Assembly: GCA_964017195.1 (NCBI GenBank)
Contig: OZ024894.1
Location: 28,008,825-28,072,824, forward strand
Direction: 5' to 3'
From: Siderastrea radians
Taxonomy: Eukaryota; Cnidaria; Anthozoa; Scleractinia; Rhizangiidae
DNA length: 64,000 nucleotides
Below are positions 2,049 through 38,855 of the stretch, one piece after another. How positions within the stretch are numbered: the stretch's first letter is position 1; each line of letters starts with the position of its first letter. The position numbers were made by a program, and so were the translations under genes. A model generated the notes under the pieces. The model was not told where the DNA came from and searched no databases. It was given only the letters and a program-made list of their open reading frames with translations.

Positions 2049-2366
2049 GTAGGAGGTAGCAAGGCGTGACAGGCCGCACAATCTCTACCGGTGTGAAATA
2101 TTTGAGAACCTTTTATATTTTTGCTCTAACGAGCATATCTTTAAGAGATTTTCCTTTCTTAAAAGATATGATAGGTGGATCTTTGAAGATTTGTTTGAGT
2201 AGTGGTTGTCCCTCTATGATGTGCCATTTTTTCATTAAAACTTGTTTGATGTTTGGCACTGCTGGTTCATATTGTGTGACAAAAGGCAAAATATCTTTCG
2301 TGTCTTTTTTGTTCTGTTTAAGCGCTGACTTCCTTTCTGTGAATTTTATTTCTGATAGGTGTTTAT
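2049..2366 (-). mobile_element. 5'-truncated PLE fragment, outermost copy
   Basis: This 318-bp copy contains only the last ~90 codons of the RT plus the 3' terminus. At the diagnostic site near 2190 it has the full-unit base (AAG) rather than the short-unit base (ACG), so it derives from an autonomous copy although it abuts the short-unit array. Its 3' end lies at the left array boundary. Confidence 0.9.
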
Positions 2367-2979
2367 CAGTAGGAGGTAGCAAGGCGTGACAGGCCGCACA
2401 ATCTCTACCGGTGTGAAATATTTGAGAACCTTTTATATTTTTGCTCTAACGAGCATATCTTTAAGAGATTTTCCTTTCTTAAAAGATATGATAGGTGGAT
2501 CTTTGACGATTTGTTTGAGTAGTGGTTGTCCCTCTATGATGTGCCATTTTTTCATTAAAACTTGTTTGATGTTTGGCACTGCTGGTTCATATTGTGTGAC
2601 AAAAGGCAAAATATCTTTCGTGTCTTTTTTGTTCTGTTTAAGCGCTGACTTCCTTTCTGTGAATTTTATTTCTGATAGGTGTTTATCTATCAGATTTCGT
2701 GGGTAGCCCCTTGCGACCAAGCGTGCTCTGAAATTTACCATGTTTTCTTCAAAAGTGCATTCTGAAGAATTTGTTCTTAGGAGTCTAAGGTCTTCGCCTT
2801 TTATGAATCCTTTTTTGACACTTGGCAGGTGACAAGAGGTGTAGTGGGTGTACTGAAAGGTTTATATAGGTTTAAAATGTGTTTTTATGTCAAGGATTGA
2901 TTGTTCCCTGAATCTTTCGCCTTTTTATATGACTGTATCCAGAAATGTAGTTTCTGTGTTTGTGTGATGTAAGGTTTCA

Positions 2980-3023
2980 AGCAAGACCTAGGTTTCGAAT
3001 CTTACAGATTCTCGTCAGTTGCT
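2980..3023 (-). ncRNA. Type I hammerhead ribozyme, unit 1
   Basis: Read on the minus strand, all conserved parts are present in order: stem I strand AGCAA, core CTGACGA, stem II GAATC/GATTC closing a TGTAA loop, core GAAA, then the 8-nt palindrome ACCTAGGT, cleavage-site C, and stem I return strand TTGCT. The palindrome supplies stem III. As a monomer it leaves only a 2-nt loop, but between two copies it pairs as 8 bp, the arrangement described for dimer-acting PLE and retrozyme hammerheads. Predicted cleavage is after GGTC, immediately before TTGCT, 52 nt upstream of the RT start codon in full units. Confidence 0.94.
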
Positions 3024-3083
3024 ATTTGTGGAATGGAAGAGGTTTGAGCTCTGTACCGTTCCGTGGTTTTTGGACAAGTTTTA

Positions 3084-3156
3084 GTTTTTATATCCACCCG
3101 TGGCCGTTAGATGGATCGAAAATGGTGCGTTATGATTGGTCCTTGCCAGTCCAATC
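3084..3156 (-). promoter_or_regulatory. Promoter-like block of the PLE unit (paired CCAAT, TATA)
   Basis: On the coding strand, GATTGG and CCAATC form an inverted CCAAT pair (3134-3156). About 40 bp downstream is the TATA-like GGATATAAAAAC (3084-3095), and about 60 bp further is the hammerhead ribozyme. Pol II transcription would then start roughly 30-40 nt upstream of the ribozyme. The same block recurs in each 1068-bp unit at +717 to +789 from the unit start, and in full units (for example 14860-14872 for the CCAAT pair). One truncated copy (22991-23717) ends exactly at this TATA. Promoter function is inferred from motif order only. Confidence 0.55.
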
Positions 3157-4047
3157 AGGTGGCTGTAGGTTCGATCCGTATGATTTCGAAGCTTGTGTTG
3201 TGTTTTCTAAAAGGTTCGAATTCAAAAATATTACGTGCAAAAATGCATCCTGTTAAAATGTACAGGCATATATATGTTATACGCGTTCTAAAGGTGCTTT
3301 CTTCCAAAGATTGAAGAAATGTGTATTCTAGTTTGCGTGTATTTAGGCGTAGAACTATTGTACAGTCCAACTTTTAGACTTTGTTAATTAAGTGGTTTCA
3401 CTGGTAGAATAGGGCTCTGTCTGGAAAACATAATCAGTAGGAGGTAGCAAGGCGTGACAGGCCGCACAATCTCTACCGGTGTGAAATATTTGAGAACCTT
3501 TTATATTTTTGCTCTAACGAGCATATCTTTAAGAGATTTTCCTTTCTTAAAAGATATGATAGGTGGATCTTTGACGATTTGTTTGAGTAGTGGTTGTCCC
3601 TCTATGATGTGCCATTTTTTCATTAAAACTTGTTTGATGTTTGGCACTGCTGGTTCATATTGTGTGACAAAAGGCAAAATATCTTTCGTGTCTTTTTTGT
3701 TCTGTTTAAGCGCTGACTTCCTTTCTGTGAATTTTATTTCTGATAGGTGTTTATCTATCAGATTTCGTGGGTAGCCCCTTGCGACCAAGCGTGCTCTGAA
3801 ATTTACCATGTTTTCTTCAAAAGTGCATTCTGAAGAATTTGTTCTTAGGAGTCTAAGGTCTTCGCCTTTTATGAATCCTTTTTTGACACTTGGCAGGTGA
3901 CAAGAGGTGTAGTGGGTGTACTGAAAGGTTTATATAGGTTTAAAATGTGTTTTTATGTCAAGGATTGATTGTTCCCTGAATCTTTCGCCTTTTTATATGA
4001 CTGTATCCAGAAATGTAGTTTCTGTGTTTGTGTGATGTAAGGTTTCA

Positions 4048-4091
4048 AGCAAGACCTAGGTTTCGAATCTTACAGATTCTCGTCAGTTGCT
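4048..4091 (-). ncRNA. Hammerhead ribozyme, unit 2
   Basis: Identical to the copy at 2980-3023, exactly 1068 bp away. Confidence 0.93.
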
Positions 4092-5115
4092 ATTTGTGGA
4101 ATGGAAGAGGTTTGAGCTCTGTACCGTTCCGTGGTTTTTGGACAAGTTTTAGTTTTTATATCCACCCGTGGCCGTTAGATGGATCGAAAATGGTGCGTTA
4201 TGATTGGTCCTTGCCAGTCCAATCAGGTGGCTGTAGGTTCGATCCGTATGATTTCGAAGCTTGTGTTGTGTTTTCTAAAAGGTTCGAATTCAAAAATATT
4301 ACGTGCAAAAATGCATCCTGTTAAAATGTACAGGCATATATATGTTATACGCGTTCTAAAGGTGCTTTCTTCCAAAGATTGAAGAAATGTGTATTCTAGT
4401 TTGCGTGTATTTAGGCGTAGAACTATTGTACAGTCCAACTTTTAGACTTTGTTAATTAAGTGGTTTCACTGGTAGAATAGGGCTCTGTCTGGAAAACATA
4501 ATCAGTAGGAGGTAGCAAGGCGTGACAGGCCGCACAATCTCTACCGGTGTGAAATATTTGAGAACCTTTTATATTTTTGCTCTAACGAGCATATCTTTAA
4601 GAGATTTTCCTTTCTTAAAAGATATGATAGGTGGATCTTTGACGATTTGTTTGAGTAGTGGTTGTCCCTCTATGATGTGCCATTTTTTCATTAAAACTTG
4701 TTTGATGTTTGGCACTGCTGGTTCATATTGTGTGACAAAAGGCAAAATATCTTTCGTGTCTTTTTTGTTCTGTTTAAGCGCTGACTTCCTTTCTGTGAAT
4801 TTTATTTCTGATAGGTGTTTATCTATCAGATTTCGTGGGTAGCCCCTTGCGACCAAGCGTGCTCTGAAATTTACCATGTTTTCTTCAAAAGTGCATTCTG
4901 AAGAATTTGTTCTTAGGAGTCTAAGGTCTTCGCCTTTTATGAATCCTTTTTTGACACTTGGCAGGTGACAAGAGGTGTAGTGGGTGTACTGAAAGGTTTA
5001 TATAGGTTTAAAATGTGTTTTTATGTCAAGGATTGATTGTTCCCTGAATCTTTCGCCTTTTTATATGACTGTATCCAGAAATGTAGTTTCTGTGTTTGTG
5101 TGATGTAAGGTTTCA

Positions 5116-5159
5116 AGCAAGACCTAGGTTTCGAATCTTACAGATTCTCGTCAGTTGCT
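5116..5159 (-). ncRNA. Hammerhead ribozyme, unit 3
   Basis: Core CTGACGA and GAAA, and palindromic stem III, all intact. Confidence 0.93.
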
Positions 5160-6183
5160 ATTTGTGGAATGGAAGAGGTTTGAGCTCTGTACCGTTCCGT
5201 GGTTTTTGGACAAGTTTTAGTTTTTATATCCACCCGTGGCCGTTAGATGGATCGAAAATGGTGCGTTATGATTGGTCCTTGCCAGTCCAATCAGGTGGCT
5301 GTAGGTTCGATCCGTATGATTTCGAAGCTTGTGTTGTGTTTTCTAAAAGGTTCGAATTCAAAAATATTACGTGCAAAAATGCATCCTGTTAAAATGTACA
5401 GGCATATATATGTTATACGCGTTCTAAAGGTGCTTTCTTCCAAAGATTGAAGAAATGTGTATTCTAGTTTGCGTGTATTTAGGCGTAGAACTATTGTACA
5501 GTCCAACTTTTAGACTTTGTTAATTAAGTGGTTTCACTGGTAGAATAGGGCTCTGTCTGGAAAACATAATCAGTAGGAGGTAGCAAGGCGTGACAGGCCG
5601 CACAATCTCTACCGGTGTGAAATATTTGAGAACCTTTTATATTTTTGCTCTAACGAGCATATCTTTAAGAGATTTTCCTTTCTTAAAAGATATGATAGGT
5701 GGATCTTTGACGATTTGTTTGAGTAGTGGTTGTCCCTCTATGATGTGCCATTTTTTCATTAAAACTTGTTTGATGTTTGGCACTGCTGGTTCATATTGTG
5801 TGACAAAAGGCAAAATATCTTTCGTGTCTTTTTTGTTCTGTTTAAGCGCTGACTTCCTTTCTGTGAATTTTATTTCTGATAGGTGTTTATCTATCAGATT
5901 TCGTGGGTAGCCCCTTGCGACCAAGCGTGCTCTGAAATTTACCATGTTTTCTTCAAAAGTGCATTCTGAAGAATTTGTTCTTAGGAGTCTAAGGTCTTCG
6001 CCTTTTATGAATCCTTTTTTGACACTTGGCAGGTGACAAGAGGTGTAGTGGGTGTACTGAAAGGTTTATATAGGTTTAAAATGTGTTTTTATGTCAAGGA
6101 TTGATTGTTCCCTGAATCTTTCGCCTTTTTATATGACTGTATCCAGAAATGTAGTTTCTGTGTTTGTGTGATGTAAGGTTTCA

Positions 6184-6227
6184 AGCAAGACCTAGGTTTC
6201 GAATCTTACAGATTCTCGTCAGTTGCT
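6184..6227 (-). ncRNA. Hammerhead ribozyme, unit 4
   Basis: All core and stem positions match the unit 1 copy. Confidence 0.93.
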
Positions 6228-7251
6228 ATTTGTGGAATGGAAGAGGTTTGAGCTCTGTACCGTTCCGTGGTTTTTGGACAAGTTTTAGTTTTTATATCCA
6301 CCCGTGGCCGTTAGATGGATCGAAAATGGTGCGTTATGATTGGTCCTTGCCAGTCCAATCAGGTGGCTGTAGGTTCGATCCGTATGATTTCGAAGCTTGT
6401 GTTGTGTTTTCTAAAAGGTTCGAATTCAAAAATATTACGTGCAAAAATGCATCCTGTTAAAATGTACAGGCATATATATGTTATACGCGTTCTAAAGGTG
6501 CTTTCTTCCAAAGATTGAAGAAATGTGTATTCTAGTTTGCGTGTATTTAGGCGTAGAACTATTGTACAGTCCAACTTTTAGACTTTGTTAATTAAGTGGT
6601 TTCACTGGTAGAATAGGGCTCTGTCTGGAAAACATAATCAGTAGGAGGTAGCAAGGCGTGACAGGCCGCACAATCTCTACCGGTGTGAAATATTTGAGAA
6701 CCTTTTATATTTTTGCTCTAACGAGCATATCTTTAAGAGATTTTCCTTTCTTAAAAGATATGATAGGTGGATCTTTGACGATTTGTTTGAGTAGTGGTTG
6801 TCCCTCTATGATGTGCCATTTTTTCATTAAAACTTGTTTGATGTTTGGCACTGCTGGTTCATATTGTGTGACAAAAGGCAAAATATCTTTCGTGTCTTTT
6901 TTGTTCTGTTTAAGCGCTGACTTCCTTTCTGTGAATTTTATTTCTGATAGGTGTTTATCTATCAGATTTCGTGGGTAGCCCCTTGCGACCAAGCGTGCTC
7001 TGAAATTTACCATGTTTTCTTCAAAAGTGCATTCTGAAGAATTTGTTCTTAGGAGTCTAAGGTCTTCGCCTTTTATGAATCCTTTTTTGACACTTGGCAG
7101 GTGACAAGAGGTGTAGTGGGTGTACTGAAAGGTTTATATAGGTTTAAAATGTGTTTTTATGTCAAGGATTGATTGTTCCCTGAATCTTTCGCCTTTTTAT
7201 ATGACTGTATCCAGAAATGTAGTTTCTGTGTTTGTGTGATGTAAGGTTTCA

Positions 7252-7295
7252 AGCAAGACCTAGGTTTCGAATCTTACAGATTCTCGTCAGTTGCT
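7252..7295 (-). ncRNA. Hammerhead ribozyme, unit 5
   Basis: All core and stem positions match the unit 1 copy. Confidence 0.93.
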
Positions 7296-8319
7296 ATTTG
7301 TGGAATGGAAGAGGTTTGAGCTCTGTACCGTTCCGTGGTTTTTGGACAAGTTTTAGTTTTTATATCCACCCGTGGCCGTTAGATGGATCGAAAATGGTGC
7401 GTTATGATTGGTCCTTGCCAGTCCAATCAGGTGGCTGTAGGTTCGATCCGTATGATTTCGAAGCTTGTGTTGTGTTTTCTAAAAGGTTCGAATTCAAAAA
7501 TATTACGTGCAAAAATGCATCCTGTTAAAATGTACAGGCATATATATGTTATACGCGTTCTAAAGGTGCTTTCTTCCAAAGATTGAAGAAATGTGTATTC
7601 TAGTTTGCGTGTATTTAGGCGTAGAACTATTGTACAGTCCAACTTTTAGACTTTGTTAATTAAGTGGTTTCACTGGTAGAATAGGGCTCTGTCTGGAAAA
7701 CATAATCAGTAGGAGGTAGCAAGGCGTGACAGGCCGCACAATCTCTACCGGTGTGAAATATTTGAGAACCTTTTATATTTTTGCTCTAACGAGCATATCT
7801 TTAAGAGATTTTCCTTTCTTAAAAGATATGATAGGTGGATCTTTGACGATTTGTTTGAGTAGTGGTTGTCCCTCTATGATGTGCCATTTTTTCATTAAAA
7901 CTTGTTTGATGTTTGGCACTGCTGGTTCATATTGTGTGACAAAAGGCAAAATATCTTTCGTGTCTTTTTTGTTCTGTTTAAGCGCTGACTTCCTTTCTGT
8001 GAATTTTATTTCTGATAGGTGTTTATCTATCAGATTTCGTGGGTAGCCCCTTGCGACCAAGCGTGCTCTGAAATTTACCATGTTTTCTTCAAAAGTGCAT
8101 TCTGAAGAATTTGTTCTTAGGAGTCTAAGGTCTTCGCCTTTTATGAATCCTTTTTTGACACTTGGCAGGTGACAAGAGGTGTAGTGGGTGTACTGAAAGG
8201 TTTATATAGGTTTAAAATGTGTTTTTATGTCAAGGATTGATTGTTCCCTGAATCTTTCGCCTTTTTATATGACTGTATCCAGAAATGTAGTTTCTGTGTT
8301 TGTGTGATGTAAGGTTTCA

Positions 8320-8363
8320 AGCAAGACCTAGGTTTCGAATCTTACAGATTCTCGTCAGTTGCT
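8320..8363 (-). ncRNA. Hammerhead ribozyme, unit 6
   Basis: All core and stem positions match the unit 1 copy. Confidence 0.93.
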
Positions 8364-9387
8364 ATTTGTGGAATGGAAGAGGTTTGAGCTCTGTACCGTT
8401 CCGTGGTTTTTGGACAAGTTTTAGTTTTTATATCCACCCGTGGCCGTTAGATGGATCGAAAATGGTGCGTTATGATTGGTCCTTGCCAGTCCAATCAGGT
8501 GGCTGTAGGTTCGATCCGTATGATTTCGAAGCTTGTGTTGTGTTTTCTAAAAGGTTCGAATTCAAAAATATTACGTGCAAAAATGCATCCTGTTAAAATG
8601 TACAGGCATATATATGTTATACGCGTTCTAAAGGTGCTTTCTTCCAAAGATTGAAGAAATGTGTATTCTAGTTTGCGTGTATTTAGGCGTAGAACTATTG
8701 TACAGTCCAACTTTTAGACTTTGTTAATTAAGTGGTTTCACTGGTAGAATAGGGCTCTGTCTGGAAAACATAATCAGTAGGAGGTAGCAAGGCGTGACAG
8801 GCCGCACAATCTCTACCGGTGTGAAATATTTGAGAACCTTTTATATTTTTGCTCTAACGAGCATATCTTTAAGAGATTTTCCTTTCTTAAAAGATATGAT
8901 AGGTGGATCTTTGACGATTTGTTTGAGTAGTGGTTGTCCCTCTATGATGTGCCATTTTTTCATTAAAACTTGTTTGATGTTTGGCACTGCTGGTTCATAT
9001 TGTGTGACAAAAGGCAAAATATCTTTCGTGTCTTTTTTGTTCTGTTTAAGCGCTGACTTCCTTTCTGTGAATTTTATTTCTGATAGGTGTTTATCTATCA
9101 GATTTCGTGGGTAGCCCCTTGCGACCAAGCGTGCTCTGAAATTTACCATGTTTTCTTCAAAAGTGCATTCTGAAGAATTTGTTCTTAGGAGTCTAAGGTC
9201 TTCGCCTTTTATGAATCCTTTTTTGACACTTGGCAGGTGACAAGAGGTGTAGTGGGTGTACTGAAAGGTTTATATAGGTTTAAAATGTGTTTTTATGTCA
9301 AGGATTGATTGTTCCCTGAATCTTTCGCCTTTTTATATGACTGTATCCAGAAATGTAGTTTCTGTGTTTGTGTGATGTAAGGTTTCA

Positions 9388-9431
9388 AGCAAGACCTAGG
9401 TTTCGAATCTTACAGATTCTCGTCAGTTGCT
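9388..9431 (-). ncRNA. Hammerhead ribozyme, unit 7
   Basis: All core and stem positions match the unit 1 copy. Confidence 0.93.
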
Positions 9432-10455
9432 ATTTGTGGAATGGAAGAGGTTTGAGCTCTGTACCGTTCCGTGGTTTTTGGACAAGTTTTAGTTTTTATA
9501 TCCACCCGTGGCCGTTAGATGGATCGAAAATGGTGCGTTATGATTGGTCCTTGCCAGTCCAATCAGGTGGCTGTAGGTTCGATCCGTATGATTTCGAAGC
9601 TTGTGTTGTGTTTTCTAAAAGGTTCGAATTCAAAAATATTACGTGCAAAAATGCATCCTGTTAAAATGTACAGGCATATATATGTTATACGCGTTCTAAA
9701 GGTGCTTTCTTCCAAAGATTGAAGAAATGTGTATTCTAGTTTGCGTGTATTTAGGCGTAGAACTATTGTACAGTCCAACTTTTAGACTTTGTTAATTAAG
9801 TGGTTTCACTGGTAGAATAGGGCTCTGTCTGGAAAACATAATCAGTAGGAGGTAGCAAGGCGTGACAGGCCGCACAATCTCTACCGGTGTGAAATATTTG
9901 AGAACCTTTTATATTTTTGCTCTAACGAGCATATCTTTAAGAGATTTTCCTTTCTTAAAAGATATGATAGGTGGATCTTTGACGATTTGTTTGAGTAGTG
10001 GTTGTCCCTCTATGATGTGCCATTTTTTCATTAAAACTTGTTTGATGTTTGGCACTGCTGGTTCATATTGTGTGACAAAAGGCAAAATATCTTTCGTGTC
10101 TTTTTTGTTCTGTTTAAGCGCTGACTTCCTTTCTGTGAATTTTATTTCTGATAGGTGTTTATCTATCAGATTTCGTGGGTAGCCCCTTGCGACCAAGCGT
10201 GCTCTGAAATTTACCATGTTTTCTTCAAAAGTGCATTCTGAAGAATTTGTTCTTAGGAGTCTAAGGTCTTCGCCTTTTATGAATCCTTTTTTGACACTTG
10301 GCAGGTGACAAGAGGTGTAGTGGGTGTACTGAAAGGTTTATATAGGTTTAAAATGTGTTTTTATGTCAAGGATTGATTGTTCCCTGAATCTTTCGCCTTT
10401 TTATATGACTGTATCCAGAAATGTAGTTTCTGTGTTTGTGTGATGTAAGGTTTCA

Positions 10456-10499
10456 AGCAAGACCTAGGTTTCGAATCTTACAGATTCTCGTCAGTTGCT
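10456..10499 (-). ncRNA. Hammerhead ribozyme, unit 8
   Basis: All core and stem positions match the unit 1 copy. Confidence 0.93.
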
Positions 10500-11523
10500 A
10501 TTTGTGGAATGGAAGAGGTTTGAGCTCTGTACCGTTCCGTGGTTTTTGGACAAGTTTTAGTTTTTATATCCACCCGTGGCCGTTAGATGGATCGAAAATG
10601 GTGCGTTATGATTGGTCCTTGCCAGTCCAATCAGGTGGCTGTAGGTTCGATCCGTATGATTTCGAAGCTTGTGTTGTGTTTTCTAAAAGGTTCGAATTCA
10701 AAAATATTACGTGCAAAAATGCATCCTGTTAAAATGTACAGGCATATATATGTTATACGCGTTCTAAAGGTGCTTTCTTCCAAAGATTGAAGAAATGTGT
10801 ATTCTAGTTTGCGTGTATTTAGGCGTAGAACTATTGTACAGTCCAACTTTTAGACTTTGTTAATTAAGTGGTTTCACTGGTAGAATAGGGCTCTGTCTGG
10901 AAAACATAATCAGTAGGAGGTAGCAAGGCGTGACAGGCCGCACAATCTCTACCGGTGTGAAATATTTGAGAACCTTTTATATTTTTGCTCTAACGAGCAT
11001 ATCTTTAAGAGATTTTCCTTTCTTAAAAGATATGATAGGTGGATCTTTGACGATTTGTTTGAGTAGTGGTTGTCCCTCTATGATGTGCCATTTTTTCATT
11101 AAAACTTGTTTGATGTTTGGCACTGCTGGTTCATATTGTGTGACAAAAGGCAAAATATCTTTCGTGTCTTTTTTGTTCTGTTTAAGCGCTGACTTCCTTT
11201 CTGTGAATTTTATTTCTGATAGGTGTTTATCTATCAGATTTCGTGGGTAGCCCCTTGCGACCAAGCGTGCTCTGAAATTTACCATGTTTTCTTCAAAAGT
11301 GCATTCTGAAGAATTTGTTCTTAGGAGTCTAAGGTCTTCGCCTTTTATGAATCCTTTTTTGACACTTGGCAGGTGACAAGAGGTGTAGTGGGTGTACTGA
11401 AAGGTTTATATAGGTTTAAAATGTGTTTTTATGTCAAGGATTGATTGTTCCCTGAATCTTTCGCCTTTTTATATGACTGTATCCAGAAATGTAGTTTCTG
11501 TGTTTGTGTGATGTAAGGTTTCA

Positions 11524-11567
11524 AGCAAGACCTAGGTTTCGAATCTTACAGATTCTCGTCAGTTGCT
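11524..11567 (-). ncRNA. Hammerhead ribozyme, unit 9
   Basis: Last ribozyme of the short-unit block. The next one is 3172 bp away, that is one full unit plus the 42-bp scrap. Confidence 0.93.
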
Positions 11568-11978
11568 ATTTGTGGAATGGAAGAGGTTTGAGCTCTGTAC
11601 CGTTCCGTGGTTTTTGGACAAGTTTTAGTTTTTATATCCACCCGTGGCCGTTAGATGGATCGAAAATGGTGCGTTATGATTGGTCCTTGCCAGTCCAATC
11701 AGGTGGCTGTAGGTTCGATCCGTATGATTTCGAAGCTTGTGTTGTGTTTTCTAAAAGGTTCGAATTCAAAAATATTACGTGCAAAAATGCATCCTGTTAA
11801 AATGTACAGGCATATATATGTTATACGCGTTCTAAAGGTGCTTTCTTCCAAAGATTGAAGAAATGTGTATTCTAGTTTGCGTGTATTTAGGCGTAGAACT
11901 ATTGTACAGTCCAACTTTTAGACTTTGTTAATTAAGTGGTTTCACTGGTAGAATAGGGCTCTGTCTGGAAAACATAAT

Positions 11979-12020
11979 CAGTAGGAGGTAGCAAGGCGTG
12001 ACAGGCCGCACAATCTCTAC
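11979..12020 (-). mobile_element. 42-bp PLE 3'-terminal scrap
   Basis: The 42 terminal bases of the element 3' end stand alone between the last short unit and the first full unit. This is the most extreme 5' truncation in the array and argues for 3'-first copying onto an existing element end, although unequal exchange could also leave it. Confidence 0.88.
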
Positions 12021-12086
12021 CAGTAGGAGGTAGCAAGGCGTGACAGGCCGCACAATCTCTACCGGTGTGAAATATTTGAGAACCTT

Positions 12087-14648: not shown

Positions 14649-14695
14649 TTTGCTTTCGACTAAGATCAACGATTCTGTTGTGATGTAAGGTTTCA

Positions 14696-14739
14696 AGCAA
14701 GACCTAGGTTTCGAATCTTACAGATTCTCGTCAGTTGCT
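14696..14739 (-). ncRNA. Hammerhead ribozyme, full unit A
   Basis: Same 44 bases as in short units, although the surrounding 5' region differs between subfamilies at several positions, so the ribozyme is conserved across both. Confidence 0.94.
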
Positions 14740-15216
14740 ATTTGTGGAATGGAAGAGGTTTGAGCTCTGTACCGTTCCGTAGTTTTTGGACAAGTTTTAG
14801 TTTTTATATCCACCCGTGGCCGTTAGATGGATCGAAAATGGTGCGTTATGATTGGTCCTTGCCAGTCCAATCAGGTGGCTGTAGGTTCGATCCGTATGAT
14901 TTCGAAGCTTGTGTTGTGTTTTCTAAAAGGTTCGAATTCAAAAATTTTACGTGCAAAAATGCATCCTGTTAAAATGTACAGGCATATTTATGTTATACGC
15001 GTTCTAAAGGTGCTTTCTTCCAAAGATTGAAGAAATGTGTATTCTAGTTTGCGTGTATTTAGGCGTAGAACTATTGTACAGTCCAACTTTTAGACTTTGT
15101 TAATTAAGTGGTTTCACTGGTAGAATAGGGCTCTGTCTGGAAAACATAATCAGTAGGAGGTAGCAAGGCGTGACAGGCCGCACAATCTCTACCGGTGTGA
15201 AATATTTGAGAACCTT

Positions 15217-17778: not shown

Positions 17779-17825
17779 TTTGCTTTCGACTAAGATCAAC
17801 GATTCTGTTGTGATGTAAGGTTTCA

Positions 17826-17869
17826 AGCAAGACCTAGGTTTCGAATCTTACAGATTCTCGTCAGTTGCT
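17826..17869 (-). ncRNA. Hammerhead ribozyme, full unit B
   Basis: Intact core and palindromic stem III, 3130 bp from the unit A copy. Confidence 0.94.
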
Positions 17870-18346
17870 ATTTGTGGAATGGAAGAGGTTTGAGCTCTGT
17901 ACCGTTCCGTAGTTTTTGGACAAGTTTTAGTTTTTATATCCACCCGTGGCCGTTAGATGGATCGAAAATGGTGCGTTATGATTGGTCCTTGCCAGTCCAA
18001 TCAGGTGGCTGTAGGTTCGATCCGTATGATTTCGAAGCTTGTGTTGTGTTTTCTAAAAGGTTCGAATTCAAAAATTTTACGTGCAAAAATGCATCCTGTT
18101 AAAATGTACAGGCATATTTATGTTATACGCGTTCTAAAGGTGCTTTCTTCCAAAGATTGAAGAAATGTGTATTCTAGTTTGCGTGTATTTAGGCGTAGAA
18201 CTATTGTACAGTCCAACTTTTAGACTTTGTTAATTAAGTGGTTTCACTGGTAGAATAGGGCTCTGTCTGGAAAACATAATCAGTAGGAGGTAGCAAGGCG
18301 TGACAGGCCGCACAATCTCTACCGGTGTGAAATATTTGAGAACCTT

Positions 18347-20908
18347 TTATATTTTTGCTCTAACGAGCATATCTTTAAGAGATTTTCCTTTCTTAAAAGA
18401 TATGATAGGTGGATCTTTGAAGATTTGTTTGAGTAGTGGTTGTCCCTCTATGATGTGCCATTTTTTCATTAAAACTTGTTTGATGTTTGGCACTGCTGGT
18501 TCATATTGTGTGACAAAAGGCAAAATATCTTTCGTGTCTTTTTTGTTCTGTTTAAGCGCTGACTTCCTTTCTGTGAATTTTATTTCTGATAGGTGTTTAT
18601 CTATCAGATTTCGTGGGTAGCCCCTTGCGACCAAGCGTGCTCTGAAATTTACCATGTTTTCTTCAAAAGTGTTTTCTGAAGAATTTGTTCTTAGGAGTCT
18701 AAGGGCTTCGCCTTTTATGAATCCTTTTTTGACACTTGGCGGGTGACAAGAGGTGTAGTGGGTGTACTGAAAGGTTTCTGTAGGTTTAAAATGTGTTTTT
18801 ATGTCAAGGATTGATTGTTCCCTGAATCTTTCGCCTTTGTATATGACTGTATCCAGAAATGTAGTTTCTGTGTTTGAGATTTCAGCTGTGAAGTTAATTG
18901 TAGGATGATGTGAATTAGCTTGTTCGATGAATCTTTCAATGTCCGTTTTGCTGGCGTCCCACAGTGAAAATATATCGTCAATGTAACGTTTCCAGACTGT
19001 AGGTTTTTTGACAGTTTTGCTTAGGATTTGTGTTTCAATTTTAGCCATGAATATGTTGGCAAAGGCGACAGCCATTTTCGTCCCCATCGCAGTGCCGTGT
19101 ACTTGAAGATAGTTCTTTCCATTAAATTGGAAGGAATTTTCTTTAAGTATGAGACTAAGCATTTCTCTGAGGTAGTGTGTGGGTATGGGAGGGCTATTAT
19201 TGTGAAAGGTGTCGTATGCTTCGCATACTGTTTCGATACCCTCTTCTTGTGGTATATTTGTATATAGGCTCGTTACGTCCATCGAAACAAGGAATGCTTG
19301 TTTATTTACGCTGGTTCTCTCAATGAAATTTATGAAATCGGTGGTGTCTTTAAGATACGACTCCTGTGATTTCGATATAGGTTGGAGCAGTGTATCAACA
19401 AAAGATGATATTTTTTCTGTGGGCCCATCACAACCGGAGATTATTGGTCTTCCTGTGATGGTAGGCTTGTGAATTTTTGTAAGAGTATAGAATTCTGGTA
19501 TTCTAGGTGGATTTGGTGTTTGGGATAGCCATTTCTTTGTCATGTTATCAATGTGATTACCATAGTGAAGGTCTGTAATTAAACGTGACACCTTGCTGTG
19601 TGTCTCTTTAACCATGGGGTTGTCAAGAGGCCTGTAATTGTTTTGATCGCTGAGTTGGATTTGACCCTCTTGAATCTTGTGTATTGTATTCATGACAACA
19701 GTGGTGTTTCCCTTGTCCGCTTTCTTGAGGTTAATTTCTTTATTTTGTTTTAATTCATTTAATGCTTTTCGTTCATTGCGTGACAAGTTCTGTTTAGGCT
19801 TAATTATTTTTATATCAGCCAGATCCATTTTCACTTCTTCTAAAAAGCTCTCTAGGGCAACTGATTTTTGAACTGGTGGGTTCCAGTTAGATTTGACATG
19901 GAAAGGGTGAACTTCTTTGCGTTTTCTGTGAAACATATATTTAAGACGCATTCGTCTTTCAAAATGTCGAAAATCCTGCAGTAATTGCCGCCGGATCTTG
20001 TTTGTGTTGGGTTTGTTCACCGGTATAAATTTTAAACCCCTGGAGATTACTTTAGTTTGGAAACAAGTAAGGTTTTTATTTGAGAGGTTTTTGATGTATT
20101 TTTCCTCCTTATTTTTTTGGTGTGAGGCTAAGTTTGTTGGTTTGTTTCTGCGTTCTTTTCGCTTTTTCGTGTCTCTTTGGGTTTTCGTGTAGTTATTTAA
20201 CTCTTTATTTTGGATTTTCCCACCCTTGGTGGTGTTGACACATTTACCAGACATATGTGGGTACTCTTCAGAATCTTTATTGTCTTCGTGTAATTCTAAC
20301 ATCATTTGATCTACTTCAGCTCTGAGTTTATCAAGCTTCTTAAGTTTCTCACTGCGGCTAACCGCCGTTGGCGGAGTAGCTCTGGATTTGTTTCGTTTGG
20401 TTTCTGAACCGCTTTCACTTAAACGGCGGGCCTTAGCTTTGTCTTTGATAAGCTTAATTTTTTGTTTTTCTAGACGGCGATAGTGAAATCTTGTTAGAGC
20501 GCGGATAAAACCTTGCTCTGCTTTCTCTTTGATTGTCTTTATGTCCTTCTTAAAGTCTTCATCTGCCGGGATATTGGCCCGTGCAGAATATCTTAATGTC
20601 TTCGGACAAGTCTTTTTTTCTAAGTGTTCATTTAATTTCTTGATGGAAATTTCCGTCTTCATAATCTTTGCTTCTGTGGAAGGGAGTGCTTGGGTGGCCT
20701 TCCGTTTATTTGCTGGCTTGGTTGGTTTTTTGTGCCCACTACTGGGTTTGGCGTCCGCTTTTGGAGGCTGGTAGCTGGGGAGTTCGTACTCATCTTCTTC
20801 TTTGTCGCTGTGCAGTTCCTTTGAACAGCCAGGCTGGTCATATGGAGTATTAAGCGGACTGGCTCCAAGGATGCTTGGAGAGAGTTCTTCATGGTACTGT
20901 TCCTCCAT
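18347..20908 (-). CDS. Penelope-like reverse transcriptase (unit C)
   Basis: Identical in translation to units A and B. Three intact, identical ORFs in a row imply duplication too recent for mutations to accumulate, or ongoing conversion. Confidence 0.92.
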   Translation of the reverse strand: MEEQYHEELSPSILGASPLNTPYDQPGCSKELHSDKEEDEYELPSYQPPKADAKPSSGHKKPTKPANKRKATQALPSTEAKIMKTEISIKKLNEHLEKKTCPKTLRYSARANIPADEDFKKDIKTIKEKAEQGFIRALTRFHYRRLEKQKIKLIKDKAKARRLSESGSETKRNKSRATPPTAVSRSEKLKKLDKLRAEVDQMMLELHEDNKDSEEYPHMSGKCVNTTKGGKIQNKELNNYTKTQRDTKKRKERRNKPTNLASHQKNKEEKYIKNLSNKNLTCFQTKVISRGLKFIPVNKPNTNKIRRQLLQDFRHFERRMRLKYMFHRKRKEVHPFHVKSNWNPPVQKSVALESFLEEVKMDLADIKIIKPKQNLSRNERKALNELKQNKEINLKKADKGNTTVVMNTIHKIQEGQIQLSDQNNYRPLDNPMVKETHSKVSRLITDLHYGNHIDNMTKKWLSQTPNPPRIPEFYTLTKIHKPTITGRPIISGCDGPTEKISSFVDTLLQPISKSQESYLKDTTDFINFIERTSVNKQAFLVSMDVTSLYTNIPQEEGIETVCEAYDTFHNNSPPIPTHYLREMLSLILKENSFQFNGKNYLQVHGTAMGTKMAVAFANIFMAKIETQILSKTVKKPTVWKRYIDDIFSLWDASKTDIERFIEQANSHHPTINFTAEISNTETTFLDTVIYKGERFREQSILDIKTHFKPTETFQYTHYTSCHPPSVKKGFIKGEALRLLRTNSSENTFEENMVNFRARLVARGYPRNLIDKHLSEIKFTERKSALKQNKKDTKDILPFVTQYEPAVPNIKQVLMKKWHIIEGQPLLKQIFKDPPIISFKKGKSLKDMLVRAKI

Positions 20909-20955
20909 TTTGCTTTCGACTAAGATCAACGATTCTGTTGTGATGTAAGGTTTCA

Positions 20956-20999
20956 AGCAAGACCTAGGTTTCGAATCTTACAGATTCTCGTCAGTTGCT
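20956..20999 (-). ncRNA. Hammerhead ribozyme, full unit C
   Basis: Intact; last ribozyme before the truncated unit D, which lacks one. Confidence 0.94.
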
Positions 21000-21410
21000 A
21001 TTTGTGGAATGGAAGAGGTTTGAGCTCTGTACCGTTCCGTAGTTTTTGGACAAGTTTTAGTTTTTATATCCACCCGTGGCCGTTAGATGGATCGAAAATG
21101 GTGCGTTATGATTGGTCCTTGCCAGTCCAATCAGGTGGCTGTAGGTTCGATCCGTATGATTTCGAAGCTTGTGTTGTGTTTTCTAAAAGGTTCGAATTCA
21201 AAAATTTTACGTGCAAAAATGCATCCTGTTAAAATGTACAGGCATATTTATGTTATACGCGTTCTAAAGGTGCTTTCTTCCAAAGATTGAAGAAATGTGT
21301 ATTCTAGTTTGCGTGTATTTAGGCGTAGAACTATTGTACAGTCCAACTTTTAGACTTTGTTAATTAAGTGGTTTCACTGGTAGAATAGGGCTCTGTCTGG
21401 AAAACATAAT

Positions 21411-22983
21411 CAGTAGGAGGTAGCAAGGCGTGACAGGCCGCACAATCTCTACCGGTGTGAAATATTTGAGAACCTTTTATATTTTTGCTCTAACGAGCAT
21501 ATCTTTAAGAGATTTTCCTTTCTTAAAAGATATGATAGGTGGATCTTTGAAGATTTGTTTGAGTAGTGGTTGTCCCTCTATGATGTGCCATTTTTTCATT
21601 AAAACTTGTTTGATGTTTGGCACTGCTGGTTCATATTGTGTGACAAAAGGCAAAATATCTTTCGTGTCTTTTTTGTTCTGTTTAAGCGCTGACTTCCTTT
21701 CTGTGAATTTTATTTCTGATAGGTGTTTATCTATCAGATTTCGTGGGTAGCCCCTTGCGACCAAGCGTGCTCTGAAATTTACCATGTTTTCTTCAAAAGT
21801 GTTTTCTGAAGAATTTGTTCTTAGGAGTCTAAGGGCTTCGCCTTTTATGAATCCTTTTTTGACACTTGGCGGGTGACAAGAGGTGTAGTGGGTGTACTGA
21901 AAGGTTTCTGTAGGTTTAAAATGTGTTTTTATGTCAAGGATTGATTGTTCCCTGAATCTTTCGCCTTTGTATATGACTGTATCCAGAAATGTAGTTTCTG
22001 TGTTTGAGATTTCAGCTGTGAAGTTAATTGTAGGATGATGTGAATTAGCTTGTTCGATGAATCTTTCAATGTCCGTTTTGCTGGCGTCCCACAGTGAAAA
22101 TATATCGTCAATGTAACGTTTCCAGACTGTAGGTTTTTTGACAGTTTTGCTTAGGATTTGTGTTTCAATTTTAGCCATGAATATGTTGGCAAAGGCGACA
22201 GCCATTTTCGTCCCCATCGCAGTGCCGTGTACTTGAAGATAGTTCTTTCCATTAAATTGGAAGGAATTTTCTTTAAGTATGAGACTAAGCATTTCTCTGA
22301 GGTAGTGTGTGGGTATGGGAGGGCTATTATTGTGAAAGGTGTCGTATGCTTCGCATACTGTTTCGATACCCTCTTCTTGTGGTATATTTGTATATAGGCT
22401 CGTTACGTCCATCGAAACAAGGAATGCTTGTTTATTTACGCTGGTTCTCTCAATGAAATTTATGAAATCGGTGGTGTCTTTAAGATACGACTCCTGTGAT
22501 TTCGATATAGGTTGGAGCAGTGTATCAACAAAAGATGATATTTTTTCTGTGGGCCCATCACAACCGGAGATTATTGGTCTTCCTGTGATGGTAGGCTTGT
22601 GAATTTTTGTAAGAGTATAGAATTCTGGTATTCTAGGTGGATTTGGTGTTTGGGATAGCCATTTCTTTGTCATGTTATCAATGTGATTACCATAGTGAAG
22701 GTCTGTAATTAAACGTGACACCTTGCTGTGTGTCTCTTTAACCATGGGGTTGTCAAGAGGCCTGTAATTGTTTTGATCGCTGAGTTGGATTTGACCCTCT
22801 TGAATCTTGTGTATTGTATTCATGACAACAGTGGTGTTTCCCTTGTCCGCTTTCTTGAGGTTAATTTCTTTATTTTGTTTTAATTCATTTAATGCTTTTC
22901 GTTCATTGCGTGACAAGTTCTGTTTAGGCTTAATTATTTTTATATCAGCCAGATCCATTTTCACTTCTTCTAAAAAGCTCTCT
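21411..22983 (-). mobile_element. 5'-truncated PLE unit D (1573 bp)
   Basis: Full-unit sequence from the 3' end up to RT residue about 354, where it stops. Seven bases with no match in the element (22984-22990) fill the gap to the next unit. Such filler at a 5' truncation is usual for target-primed reverse transcription. Confidence 0.9.
21477..22983 (-). pseudogene. Truncated Penelope-like reverse transcriptase (unit D)
   Basis: Retains all catalytic RT motifs (DKG, MDVTSLYTNIP, YIDDIF) and the C-terminus but has lost the basic N-terminal ~354 residues, the leader and the promoter region. By chance the frame stays open through the 7-bp filler into the neighbouring unit's tail, adding about eight foreign residues that begin MLPPT. 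A 509-codon ORF therefore exists but is probably not a functional gene. Confidence 0.85.
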
Positions 22984-22990
22984 ATCATTG

Positions 22991-23717
22991 CAGTAGGAGG
23001 TAGCAAGGCGTGACAGGCCGCACAATCTCTACCGGTGTGAAATATTTGAGAACCTTTTATATTTTTGCTCTAACGAGCATATCTTTAAGAGATTTTCCTT
23101 TCTTAAAAGATATGATAGGTGGATCTTTGACGATTTGTTTGAGTAGTGGTTGTCCCTCTATGATGTGCCATTTTTTCATTAAAACTTGTTTGATGTTTGG
23201 CACTGCTGGTTCATATTGTGTGACAAAAGGCAAAATATCTTTCGTGTCTTTTTTGTTCTGTTTAAGCGCTGACTTCCTTTCTGTGAATTTTATTTCTGAT
23301 AGGTGTTTATCTATCAGATTTCGTGGGTAGCCCCTTGCGACCAAGCGTGCTCTGAAATTTACCATGTTTTCTTCAAAAGTGCATTCTGAAGAATTTGTTC
23401 TTAGGAGTCTAAGGTCTTCGCCTTTTATGAATCCTTTTTTGACACTTGGCAGGTGACAAGAGGTGTAGTGGGTGTACTGAAAGGTTTATATAGGTTTAAA
23501 ATGTGTTTTTATGTCAAGGATTGATTGTTCCCTGAATCTTTCGCCTTTTTATATGACTGTATCCAGAAATGTAGTTTCTGTGTTTGTGTGATGTAAGGTT
23601 TCAAGCAAGACCTAGGTTTCGAATCTTACAGATTCTCGTCAGTTGCTATTTGTGGAATGGAAGAGGTTTGAGCTCTGTACCGTTCTGTGGTTTTTGGACA
23701 AGTTTTAGTTTTTATAT
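22991..23717 (-). mobile_element. 5'-truncated short PLE unit E (727 bp)
   Basis: Short-unit subfamily by its diagnostic bases, with the same internal deletion. It is truncated at the TATA of the promoter-like block (…TTTATATC) and carries one private base (C to T) near 23686. It shows that short units also inserted among full units. Confidence 0.9.
23604..23647 (-). ncRNA. Hammerhead ribozyme, unit E
   Basis: Ribozyme intact although the upstream promoter is lost. Confidence 0.92.
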
Positions 23718-24398
23718 CAATAGGAGGTAGCAAGGCGTGACAGGCCGCACAATCTCTACCGGTGTGAAATATTTGAGAACCTTTTATATTTTTGCTCTAA
23801 CGAGCATATCTTTAAGAGATTTTCCTTTCTTAAAAGATATGATAGGTGGATCTTTGACGATTTGTTTGAGTAGTGGTTGTCCCTCTATGATGTGCCATTT
23901 TTTCATTAAAACTTGTTTGATGTTTGGCACTGCTGGTTCATATTGTGTGACAAAAGGCAAAATATCTTTCGTGTCTTTTTTGTTCTGTTTAAGCGCTGAC
24001 TTCCTTTCTGTGAATTTTATTTCTGATAGGTGTTTATCTATCAGATTTCGTGGGTAGCCCCTTGCGACCAAGCGTGCTCTGAAATTTACCATGTTTTCTT
24101 CAAAAGTGCATTCTGAAGAATTTGTTCTTAGGAGTCTAAGGTCTTCGCCTTTTATGAATCCTTTTTTGACACTTGGCAGGTGACAAGAGGTGTAGTGGGT
24201 GTACTGAAAGGTTTATATAGGTTTAAAATGTGTTTTTATGTCAAGGATTGATTGTTCCCTGAATCTTTCGCCTTTTTATATGACTGTATCCAGAAATGTA
24301 GTTTCTGTGTTTGTGTGATGTAAGGTTTCAAGCAAGACCTAGGTTTCGAATCTTACAGATTCTCGTCAGTTGCTATTTGTGGAATGGAAGAGGTTTGA
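23718..24398 (-). mobile_element. 5'-truncated short PLE unit F (681 bp), at the inversion
   Basis: Short-unit type. Its 3' terminus reads CCTCCTATTG instead of CCTCCTACTG. The 5' side breaks shortly beyond the ribozyme and is fused directly to an oppositely oriented unit. Confidence 0.9.
24331..24374 (-). ncRNA. Hammerhead ribozyme, unit F
   Basis: Intact. It lies 24 bp from the head-to-head junction and faces the plus-strand ribozyme at 24785. Confidence 0.92.
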
Positions 24399-25441
24399 TT
24401 CTACCAGTGAAACCACTTAATTAACAAAGTCTAAAAGTTGGACTGTACAATAGTTCTACGCCTAAATACACGCAAACTAGAATACACATTTCTTCAATCT
24501 TTGGAAGAAAGCACCTTTAGAACGCGTATAACATATATATGCCTGTACATTTTAACAGGATGCATTTTTGCACGTAATATTTTTGAATTCGAACCTTTTA
24601 GAAAACACAACACAAGCTTCGAAATCATACGGATCGAACCTACAGCCACCTGATTGGACTGGCAAGGACCAATCATAACGCACCATTTTCGATCCATCTA
24701 ACGGCCACGGGTGGATATAAAAACTAAAACTTGTCCAAAAACCACGGAACGGTACAGAGCTCAAACCTCTTCCATTCCACAAATAGCAACTGACGAGAAT
24801 CTGTAAGATTCGAAACCTAGGTCTTGCTTGAAACCTTACATCACACAAACACAGAAACTACATTTCTGGATACAGTCATATAAAAAGGCGAAAGATTCAG
24901 GGAACAATCAATCCTTGACATAAAAACACATTTTAAACCTATATAAACCTTTCAGTACACCCACTACACCTCTTGTCACCTGCCAAGTGTCAAAAAAGGA
25001 TTCATAAAAGGCGAAGACCTTAGACTCCTAAGAACAAATTCTTCAGAATGCACTTTTGAAGAAAACATGGTAAATTTCAGAGCACGCTTGGTCGCAAGGG
25101 GCTACCCACGAAATCTGATAGATAAACACCTATCAGAAATAAAATTCACAGAAAGGAAGTCAGCGCTTAAACAGAACAAAAAAGACACGAAAGATATTTT
25201 GCCTTTTGTCACACAATATGAACCAGCAGTGCCAAACATCAAACAAGTTTTAATGAAAAAATGGCACATCATAGAGGGACAACCACTACTCAAACAAATC
25301 GTCAAAGATCCACCTATCATATCTTTTAAGAAAGGAAAATCTCTTAAAGATATGCTCGTTAGAGCAAAAATATAAAAGGTTCTCAAATATTTCACACCGG
25401 TAGAGATTGTGCGGCCTGTCACGCCTTGCTACCTCCTACTG
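24399..25441 (+). mobile_element. Short PLE unit G, plus strand (1043 bp)
   Basis: Short-unit copy in the opposite orientation, lacking only ~25 bp of the unit's 5' edge. It joins unit H head to tail at 25441/25442. Confidence 0.92.
24785..24828 (+). ncRNA. Hammerhead ribozyme, unit G
   Basis: Same 44 bases, now on the plus strand. The paired CCAAT motif at 24652-24674 and the TATA at 24713-24724 lie upstream. Confidence 0.93.
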
Positions 25442-26509
25442 ATTATGTTTTCCAGACAGAGCCCTATTCTACCAGTGAAACCACTTAATTAACAAAGTCT
25501 AAAAGTTGGACTGTACAATAGTTCTACGCCTAAATACACGCAAACTAGAATACACATTTCTTCAATCTTTGGAAGAAAGCACCTTTAGAACGCGTATAAC
25601 ATATATATGCCTGTACATTTTAACAGGATGCATTTTTGCACGTAATATTTTTGAATTCGAACCTTTTAGAAAACACAACACAAGCTTCGAAATCATACGG
25701 ATCGAACCTACAGCCACCTGATTGGACTGGCAAGGACCAATCATAACGCACCATTTTCGATCCATCTAACGGCCACGGGTGGATATAAAAACTAAAACTT
25801 GTCCAAAAACCACGGAACGGTACAGAGCTCAAACCTCTTCCATTCCACAAATAGCAACTGACGAGAATCTGTAAGATTCGAAACCTAGGTCTTGCTTGAA
25901 ACCTTACATCACACAAACACAGAAACTACATTTCTGGATACAGTCATATAAAAAGGCGAAAGATTCAGGGAACAATCAATCCTTGACATAAAAACACATT
26001 TTAAACCTATATAAACCTTTCAGTACACCCACTACACCTCTTGTCACCTGCCAAGTGTCAAAAAAGGATTCATAAAAGGCGAAGACCTTAGACTCCTAAG
26101 AACAAATTCTTCAGAATGCACTTTTGAAGAAAACATGGTAAATTTCAGAGCACGCTTGGTCGCAAGGGGCTACCCACGAAATCTGATAGATAAACACCTA
26201 TCAGAAATAAAATTCACAGAAAGGAAGTCAGCGCTTAAACAGAACAAAAAAGACACGAAAGATATTTTGCCTTTTGTCACACAATATGAACCAGCAGTGC
26301 CAAACATCAAACAAGTTTTAATGAAAAAATGGCACATCATAGAGGGACAACCACTACTCAAACAAATCGTCAAAGATCCACCTATCATATCTTTTAAGAA
26401 AGGAAAATCTCTTAAAGATATGCTCGTTAGAGCAAAAATATAAAAGGTTCTCAAATATTTCACACCGGTAGAGATTGTGCGGCCTGTCACGCCTTGCTAC
26501 CTCCTATTG
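25442..26509 (+). mobile_element. Complete short PLE unit H, plus strand (1068 bp)
   Basis: Complete 1068-bp unit. Its 3' edge reads CCTCCTATTG, and the next copy begins within or right after these bases. Confidence 0.92.
25853..25896 (+). ncRNA. Hammerhead ribozyme, unit H
   Basis: Intact, 1068 bp from the unit G copy. Confidence 0.93.
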
Positions 26510-27123
26510 CTTGAAACCTTACATCACACAAACACAGAAACTACATTTCTGGATACAGTCATATAAAAAGGCGAAAGATTCAGGGAACAATCAATCCTTG
26601 ACATAAAAACACATTTTAAACCTATATAAACCTTTCAGTACACCCACTACACCTCTTGTCACCTGCCAAGTGTCAAAAAAGGATTCATAAAAGGCGAAGA
26701 CCTTAGACTCCTAAGAACAAATTCTTCAGAATGCACTTTTGAAGAAAACATGGTAAATTTCAGAGCACGCTTGGTCGCAAGGGGCTACCCACGAAATCTG
26801 ATAGATAAACACCTATCAGAAATAAAATTCACAGAAAGGAAGTCAGCGCTTAAACAGAACAAAAAAGACACGAAAGATATTTTGCCTTTTGTCACACAAT
26901 ATGAACCAGCAGTGCCAAACATCAAACAAGTTTTAATGAAAAAATGGCACATCATAGAGGGACAACCACTACTCAAACAAATCGTCAAAGATCCACCTAT
27001 CATATCTTTTAAGAAAGGAAAATCTCTTAAAGATATGCTCGTTAGAGCAAAAATATAAAAGGTTCTCAAATATTTCACACCGGTAGAGATTGTGCGGCCT
27101 GTCACGCCTTGCTACCTCCTACT
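26510..27123 (+). mobile_element. Short PLE unit I, truncated at the ribozyme cleavage site
   Basis: Starts at (TTG)CTTGAAACC. If the TTG at 26507-26509 belongs to this copy, its first base is the base directly 3' of the predicted hammerhead cut. It lacks the ribozyme and promoter. Five bases (27124-27128) separate it from unit J. Confidence 0.85.
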
Positions 27124-27167
27124 CCTAGGGAACGGTACAGAGCTCAAACCTCTTCCATTCCACAAAT

Positions 27168-27211
27168 AGCAACTGACGAGAATCTGTAAGATTCGAAACC
27201 TAGGTCTTGCT
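27168..27211 (+). ncRNA. Hammerhead ribozyme, unit J
   Basis: Intact; predicted cleavage between 27206 and 27207 leaves a 52-nt leader before the ATG at 27259. Confidence 0.94.
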
Positions 27212-27258
27212 TGAAACCTTACATCACAACAGAATCGTTGATCTTAGTCGAAAGCAAA

Positions 27259-29820: not shown

Positions 29821-29886
29821 AAGGTTCTCAAATATTTCACACCGGTAGAGATTGTGCGGCCTGTCACGCCTTGCTACCTCCTATTG

Positions 29887-38748: not shown

Positions 38749-38749
38749 T

Positions 38750-38855
38750 CTCTCGTTTAAAGAATCCTATCAACCTACCCCGCCGTGCGTTACGCAAGAA
38801 CAAAACAATAAACACATACTTATTGTGTGTCGCGTGCTCACTGGAGGCCGCACGG
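38750..38855. repeat. Repeat B, left terminal copy (106 bp)
   Basis: Matches 41055-41160 with a single C/T difference. Contains a hairpin ACAATAA…TTATTGT and GC-rich arms (GCGTGC…GCACG), features expected of a recombination end. It abuts the broken LINE directly. Confidence 0.85.

Follow-up and report, generated by a model that had tools for sequence, protein, structure and literature searches.

Hammerhead ribozymes (HHRs) are known from Penelope-like elements (PLEs), but their role there has been called a mystery (PMC7761336). A locus in the genome of the stony coral Siderastrea radians raises the question of whether ribozyme cutting leaves a record in the inserted copies of such an element. 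The analyzed stretch of 64,000 nucleotides, hereafter the window, corresponds to C8:28008825-28072824 in our genome labels (assembly size, 804.8 Mb) and contains a PLE array with 17 minimal type I HHRs, 14 on the minus strand and three on the plus strand. Because HHRs in PLEs are already known, the new part is what the insertion ends record: two copies begin exactly at the HHR cut, and others have their 5' end at what appears to be a transcription start. Judging from these sequences, it is fairly probable that transcripts of the element self-cleave via dimeric HHRs and that reverse transcription, starting internally and proceeding through successive template jumps, uses a minority of the cut RNA as template.

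We number the unit such that U1 is the base directly 3' of the HHR cut (GGTC/TTGCTTG, with the slash marking the cut) and U3130 is the final base ahead of the next cut, using the minus strand of 17831-20960 as the reference unit. The full-length unit (F) comprises 3130 nt, and the deleted unit (M) comprises 1068 nt, in which an internal deletion fuses U1-U22 to U2085-U3130, with 11 base differences between M and F across the shared part. Further loci (L numbers), mostly from the same assembly, were collected genome-wide via HHR-centred queries, and C2, C7, C12, C313, C376, and C419 denote other contigs. Copy vii of the window, an M copy on the plus strand (26507..27123), runs from U1 (CCTA/TTGCTTGAAACC) to U2679 with 0 differences, and exact matches flank its 5' junction on either side without overlap. 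On the unlinked contig C7, an F copy also begins exactly at U1; it follows a 3-nt filler (AGG), shows no TTG overlap, and faces a copy starting at U2993. A whole-genome pattern search for any base except C followed by U1-U22 gave three matches, namely copy vii, the C7 copy, and one C313 copy. Two of the three are true U1 starts; the C313 match keeps the entire HHR, with a C to T change just before the cut. We read copy vii as the putative footprint of a ribozyme-cut template.

Copy viii (27129..29883, plus strand) offers the counterpart. It is an F monomer with an intact HHR and 0 differences, ends at U2677 against host DNA, and starts at U3053, at a C/G step; the TATAAAA box (U3023-3029; 21062..21068 on the minus strand in one F unit) has its first base 30 nt upstream. 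Three more copies (L036, L039, and L040) start at U3053 and one (L053) at U3054, from which we infer that U3053 is probably a transcription start. The copies starting at U3053 retain the HHR, and therefore their template was uncut. Under a uniform null, four of the 42 listed 5' ends at U3053 correspond to P 1e-9 and two at U1 to P 9e-5; when only those ends are counted that the HHR-centred query window spans (13), two at U1 give P 4.9e-4. The U1 site had been named beforehand from the HHR finding, but the U3053 site had not. The list was compiled by hand and includes U2472 in L053. It excludes the U2614 boundary of older copies, which marks diverged sequence and not an insertion end, short pieces in L048 (26 nt, U3104) and L057 (35 nt), the internal breaks of L043 and L044, the C7 break at U155, copies reaching the edge of a fetched locus, and the duplicate loci L007 and L058-L060. 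We found no report of PLE copies beginning at the HHR cut in the consulted parts of PMC11167929, PMC7229834, PMC7761336, PMC3846280, PMC6431247, PMC6155905, PMC8490949, and PMC10085705; this set does not cover the founding PLE-HHR papers, and we do not claim priority.

How well do the motifs qualify as HHRs? The sequence-only reading had described 17 identical HHRs, and pattern and descriptor scans recovered all of them. The 44-nt cores (AGCAA..TTGCT) lie on the minus strand at 2980..3023 (cut between 2985 and 2984, U1 = 2984), 4048..4091 (U1 at 4052), 5116..5159 (U1 at 5120), 6184..6227 (U1 at 6188), 7252..7295 (U1 at 7256), 8320..8363 (U1 at 8324), 9388..9431 (U1 at 9392), 10456..10499 (U1 at 10460), 11524..11567 (U1 at 11528), 14696..14739 (U1 at 14700), 17826..17869 (U1 at 17830), 20956..20999 (U1 at 20960), 23604..23647 (U1 at 23608), and 24331..24374 (U1 at 24335), and on the plus strand at 24785..24828 (cut between 24823 and 24824, U1 = 24824), 25853..25896 (U1 at 25892), and 27168..27211 (U1 at 27207). 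Each core reads AGCAA CUGACGA GAAUC UGUAA GAUUC GAAA CC UA GGUC / UUGCU, so that the parts named earlier (CTGACGA, stem II, GAAA, GGTC, and stem I) are present in 17 of 17, with the small correction that a 6-bp reading of stem II is possible. Stem III consists of ACC/GGU with a 2-nt loop. The anatomy of a type I HHR, i.e., a CUGANGA and GAAA core, three stems, an NUH cleavage triplet, and the open end at stem I, was found in every motif. A descriptor (CTGANGA; stem II of at least 3 bp; GAAA; stem III of at least 3 bp; H17; stem I of at least 4 bp) returned exactly the same 17 motifs in the window and 0 in 40 first-order Markov sequences, and an 18th occurrence of ACCTAGGT at 30330 was rejected as an HHR. 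As claimed, there is one HHR per PLE unit that keeps its 5' region, and the HHR-less parts (copy v, the outermost part of iii, and copy vii) all begin 3' of the HHR. The core, the 20 nt 5' of it, and U1-U22 3' of the cut are identical in all 17; when extended to include U23, where F and M diverge, the stretches split into two forms. The 17 HHRs are not 17 independent observations but recent copies of two parent sequences. Genome-wide (804.8 Mb), the 16-mer ACCTAGGTTTCGAATC occurs 137 times (79 + 58; 100 places were listed), against 0 for its reversed control. The assignment to a type I HHR with minimal stem III in a PLE is backed by this anatomy, by the telomerase-like reverse transcriptase (RT) described below, and by the PLE-HHR literature (PMC7761336).

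The sequence-only reading had also considered the palindromic stem III to be poor as a monomer and ideal between two copies. Folding with ViennaRNA agreed with the first part, the monomer being predicted to adopt the HHR fold with a probability of 0.0007 (51-nt core) or 4e-5 (140-nt context). For the second part, the predicted minimum free energy structure of two cores is a double hammerhead with an 8-bp stem III (-25.8 vs. 2 x -9.2 kcal/mol). That gain in energy is nothing unusual, however, since 88 of 200 shuffles reach it; the model support for the dimeric form is the predicted fold shape, not the dimerisation energy. Comparison with Rfam weighs against the assignment. A covariance-model score below threshold had been set beforehand as an outcome that would speak against an HHR, and the best score was indeed below it: a 101-nt stretch reached 17.9 bits with Hammerhead_HH9 (cut-off 52, E 0.022) and 17.3 bits with RAGATH-1-hammerhead (cut-off 56.3, E 0.59). 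There were 0 matches at the gathering threshold across the window and no hammerhead at E<=10 within 2000-32000. Given the 3-bp stem III with its 2-nt loop, the low score says little about activity, and we class the HHR as a probable minimal or dimeric variant outside the Rfam families. The viral contigs and prokaryote genomes searched contained no DNA of independent relatives with the motif from which covariation could be judged. Four exact CTGANGA..GAAACCTAGGTC matches in viral contigs (L001-L004), in which no stem I was seen by eye, were judged to be chance occurrences, and no PLE relative was found in the viral contigs.

The F unit carries a single open reading frame (ORF) of 853 aa from its ATG (876 aa stop to stop), intact at 18347..20908 (minus) and in further copies at 12087-14648 (minus), 15217-17778 (minus), and 27259-29820 (plus). 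The ATG is at U53, which places the HHR cut 52 nt upstream of it, and the stop codon ends at U2614. The relatives of the RT to which a species or genus name is attached point to a stony coral as the most likely host: Oculina patagonica (93% identity over 57% of the query), Montipora, Acropora, and Pocillopora. A sequence search of solved structures gave no match; a structure model of the RT (mean pLDDT 77.5, pTM 0.64) had telomerase RTs as its best matches, as is typical for a PLE. Tandem or partial tandem copies, head-to-head copies, and 5' truncation, which are also PLE traits, are all present. Downstream of the RT within the unit, tblastn with three GIY-YIG-bearing homologs found nothing better than E 0.1. 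Among the 120 homologs listed, 61 contain the RT C-terminal motif, of which 59 end exactly there, one extends by one residue and one by 56, and a crude pattern detected a GIY-YIG-like motif in three distant homologs. We read the element as belonging to a presumably endonuclease-deficient PLE group and not as a canonical PLE. In the prokaryote genomes, the search uncovered two contaminant PLE contigs (L005 and L006), in which visual inspection shows the frames extending into a GIY-YIG-like stretch. L005 has a single CTGANGA and no HHR, and L006 has no CTGANGA; the ends of L006 overlap by 77 nt, as expected of a tandem unit. A stand-alone GIY-YIG remnant of another element lies about 12 kb from the PLE in the window (41539-42108, minus; PF01541, 22.3 bits, cut-off 22.6).

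The locus itself (2048-29883) is composed of eight joined copies of F or M that are nearly free of differences, two in total separating them from their units. Copies v, iv, iii, ii, and i are on the minus strand and vi, vii, and viii on the plus strand, with the 5' ends of i and vi meeting head-to-head at 24398. Copy v (2048..2367) is an F fragment, U2360-U2679, with its 3' end against the left host DNA and 0 differences. Copy iv (2365..12021, 9657 nt, 0 differences) comprises 9.04 laps of M from U2682 back to U2638, and copy iii (12021..22984, 10964 nt, 0 differences) comprises 3.5 laps of F from U2680 back to U1107. Copy ii (22991..23718, 1 difference) is M from U2680 back to about U3021, and copy i (23716..24398) is M from U2682 (exact match to U2677) back to U3068, with 1 difference, at the junction. 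Copy vi (24398..26506, 0 differences) covers 1.97 laps of M from U2705 to U2677. The last matching base of all eight 3' ends in the window falls within U2677-2682, a site recurring at other loci (U2677-U2680 is 18281..18284, minus, in one F unit), and at each of the six same-strand junctions the 5' end of one copy abuts this point of the next. The sequence at the point is CTACTG in 13 internal passages and CTATTG in three of the eight terminal passages. The site would be an internal RT start 63-68 nt past the stop codon, where the RNA structure is unremarkable (z -1.1). F and M are unmixed within any tract, and the 9657-, 10964-, 2109-, and 2755-nt tracts have 0 differences from their unit. 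The 9.04-, 3.5-, and 1.97-lap tracts share the 3' point but stop at unrelated 5' points (U2638, U1107, and U2705), as expected of a template without an end, though this concerns only three tracts.

Sequences, junctions, and ends are direct observations, from which cleavage, circles, jumps, and the order of events are deduced as follows. Transcription would start at U3053 behind the TATA box and, with copies in tandem, read through several units. Two adjacent HHRs would pair via the palindromic stem III and cut ahead of U1, as structure and footprints suggest. The telomerase-like RT would then initiate internally, at U2677-2682, on any RNA at hand. Uncut RNA from U3053 would yield a copy U3053-U2680 with the HHR, such as viii, and cut linear RNA (U1-U3130) read from U2680 would yield a copy U1-U2680 without it, such as vii. 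At the 5' end of its template, the RT would hop to the U2680 site of another RNA, producing chained copies, and one chain from either side of a break would have met the other at 24398. Pre-existing breaks would be natural targets because no endonuclease was found. Only a multi-unit RNA or a circle lets a copy continue beyond U1 into U3130 and begin another lap; the single-type tracts (M x9, F x3.5, and M x2) would most simply represent repeated laps on ribozyme-made RNA circles, which is the least certain step. Rolling-circle reverse transcription, with HHR-made PLE circles copied by an endonuclease-free RT from a fixed site into both break ends with template jumping, is thus a tentative proposal. 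We hold with the same reserve that an autonomous element copied in this manner would leave marks of uncut, cut, and circular templates side by side.

Other loci show comparable arrangements. On C2 (L055), a run of four F pieces has its 3' ends at U2678 or U2679, and the 5' point changes from each piece to the next. The series resembles the work of an RT that leaves one RNA at its 5' end and enters another at the U2680 site. Copies meet head-to-head in the window, on C2, C7, C12, C313, C376, and C419, and at a second C8 locus. The latter (C8:28000684-28005619), 5-8 kb left of the window, contains F and M units with HHRs and copies starting at U3053 and U3054. At L049 (C376:113250-114700), about 3.5 CCCTAA repeats, from position 462, serve as filler between head-to-head PLE copies, which fits an endonuclease-free RT attaching to broken or telomeric ends.

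Several observations weigh against ribozyme cutting, and some of them would suit an HHR that is an inherited PLE feature, inactive or irrelevant here, with the U1 starts arising from chance truncations or microhomology joins. The 5' ends are scattered overall, and TTG follows CCTA also at the terminal junctions 23721 and 29883, so that the overlap allows copy vii to start anywhere from U1 to U4. Close but inexact ends exist at U4-6 on C376 (two bases common to both sides) and at U12 on C12. Taken singly, the footprints are only modestly improbable (P 0.003-0.03 for vii, depending on unit length and TTG overlap; about 0.02 for C7). The uniform null is crude, all P values being relative to it and not to neighbouring start positions, and HHR-centred fetching of loci favours ends near U1. 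U3053 starts outnumber U1 starts, and cutting is therefore not required. The extra G that a copied cap would leave before U3053 is inconsistent, being present in L035 (viii) and L036, maybe derived from the neighbour in L039, and absent from L040. Among seven older copies, at about 96-98% identity, five carry changes at U1-U3 that weaken stem I; one of these five, L044, is additionally changed at U3106, and two of the seven keep the whole core. For the anole PLE, HHR mutants were without effect on insertion in vitro, the HHR being unnecessary in that biochemical study, and no RNA-seq ends were reported at the HHR cut (PMC11167929). An inactive HHR has difficulty, however, with two exact U1 matches at a site named in advance, located at two unlinked loci in two element types and in one case without overlap; we consider it unlikely. 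We give less weight to reading vii as the result of vi having inserted at TTG in an older unit, since the missing upstream half is absent from the other side and C7 lacks the overlap. Within the 123-nt HHR region, four of 11 substitution sites are the cut-site bases U3130, U1, U2, and U3 (P 4e-5, post hoc; one indel and the junction base U3052 are not counted). These cut-site substitutions, found in L060, L037, L038, L041, L043, and L044, may reflect relaxed constraint or scars of cutting and rejoining.

With regard to the circles, multi-unit transcripts or unequal crossing-over also yield tandem arrays. We give close to even weight to an origin of the arrays from linear multi-unit transcripts or from DNA-level amplification by unequal crossing-over or in a satellite-like manner, which is compatible with HHR cutting and with the other alternatives. 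PLEs are known to occur as tandem or partial tandem repeats (PMC11167929). At C419:106580-112038, M units alternate between 1068 and 1066 nt over six positions, forming a two-unit higher-order repeat; a one-unit circle would not yield such alternation, which suggests two-unit templates or DNA-level homogenisation. At C376:116039-143458, 27 HHR sites follow each other at 1054-nt spacing, a third unit length, in an array with a satellite-like look that could be satellite amplification. Yet the tracts of the window keep F and M apart and share one 3' site, neither of which crossing-over predicts, and working HHRs should cut multi-unit linear RNA. As for the jump chains, the copies might instead be successive independent nested insertions, in which case U2638-2680 would be a target duplication of 42-43 bp made by iii. 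The iii/iv junction does hold a tandem duplication, 42 bp long and perfect (11979-12063), and published PLE insertions, as far as the consulted parts of the literature go, can give target duplications, though of 8-10 bp. Any such series would have to be very recent, with only two differences between copies and units, and the joining of 5' ends to U2677-2682 at all six same-strand junctions, as at other loci, also argues against it, leaving nested insertions possible but somewhat improbable. The jump chains do not explain everything either: at L048 (C376:93200-95200, positions 660-720), opposed copies face each other with their 3' ends across the 26-nt HHR-derived piece, an arrangement for which two chains meeting head-to-head give no explanation. 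Assembly often goes wrong at perfect repeats and at an inverted centre such as these, and the contig could in principle be collapsed, expanded, or a fold-back palindrome. This is very improbable, because the two arms are not mirror images and like junctions occur on C2, C313, C376, and C419, although the unit counts in the assembly may be wrong.

Elsewhere in the window, a decayed LINE-like element at 36063-38760 combines an endonuclease-like frame (by eye) with an RT frame (RVT_1, 52.4 bits). Two large inverted repeats lie at 57405-59157 and 59176-63408, with arm identities of 93% and 94%, and a tandem repeat of 26 bp x 13.3 copies occupies 40276-40620.

Minimal PLE HHRs were reportedly described by Cervera and de la Pena in 2014 and by Lunse, Weinberg and Breaker in 2017. 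Known PLE HHRs are of type I, have almost no stem III, lie in the repeated PLE region, and are supposed to cut as dimers (PMC7761336). The coral HHRs resemble them in type, tiny stem III, and location in the repeat region, and differ in having copies that start at the cut. The Poseidon element of Anolis carolinensis (PAc; Frangieh et al., 2024, PMC11167929) shares the tandem organization, an HHR near the ORF start, and an internal RT start; both DNA strands were extended in vitro by PAc. However, PAc has a GIY-YIG domain, whereas no endonuclease was found in the coral element; its RT starts 111-118 bp into the ORF, compared with apparently 63-68 nt past the stop codon in the coral, and its HHR cut falls 26 bp into the ORF instead of upstream of the ATG. 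Animal non-LTR retrozymes (Cervera and de la Pena, 2020, PMC7229834) are alike in their tandem type I HHR units, proposed RNA-circle copying, and occurrence in a coral, but they are about 170-400 nt long and non-autonomous, whereas the 1068-nt M unit is an internally deleted PLE and F encodes its own RT. Athena elements and Terminons of rotifers (PMC3846280, PMC6431247) also have an RT without GIY-YIG, and Terminons possess HHR motifs and long head-to-tail arrays. Unlike these telomere-linked elements, the coral window contains no TTAGGG or CCCTAA doublet, though the L049 junction has such repeats. Head-to-head copies have been described for other PLEs (PMC3846280).

What this locus adds is a PLE without an endonuclease in which two footprints fall exactly on the cut site and others on the start site, together with a testable model of circle-like copying. 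Insertion 5' ends provide a cheap and direct genomic test, as a cut RNA that serves as template should give copies beginning exactly at the cut, and such a census of 5' ends is applicable to any genome with such elements. That two coral copies begin at the cut, beside copies from the apparent transcription start, suggests that the ribozymes cut in the living animal. The locus is also a specific example in which insertion without an endonuclease would have proceeded from either side of a break, and in which a relative of telomerase may have copied in a circle-like manner.

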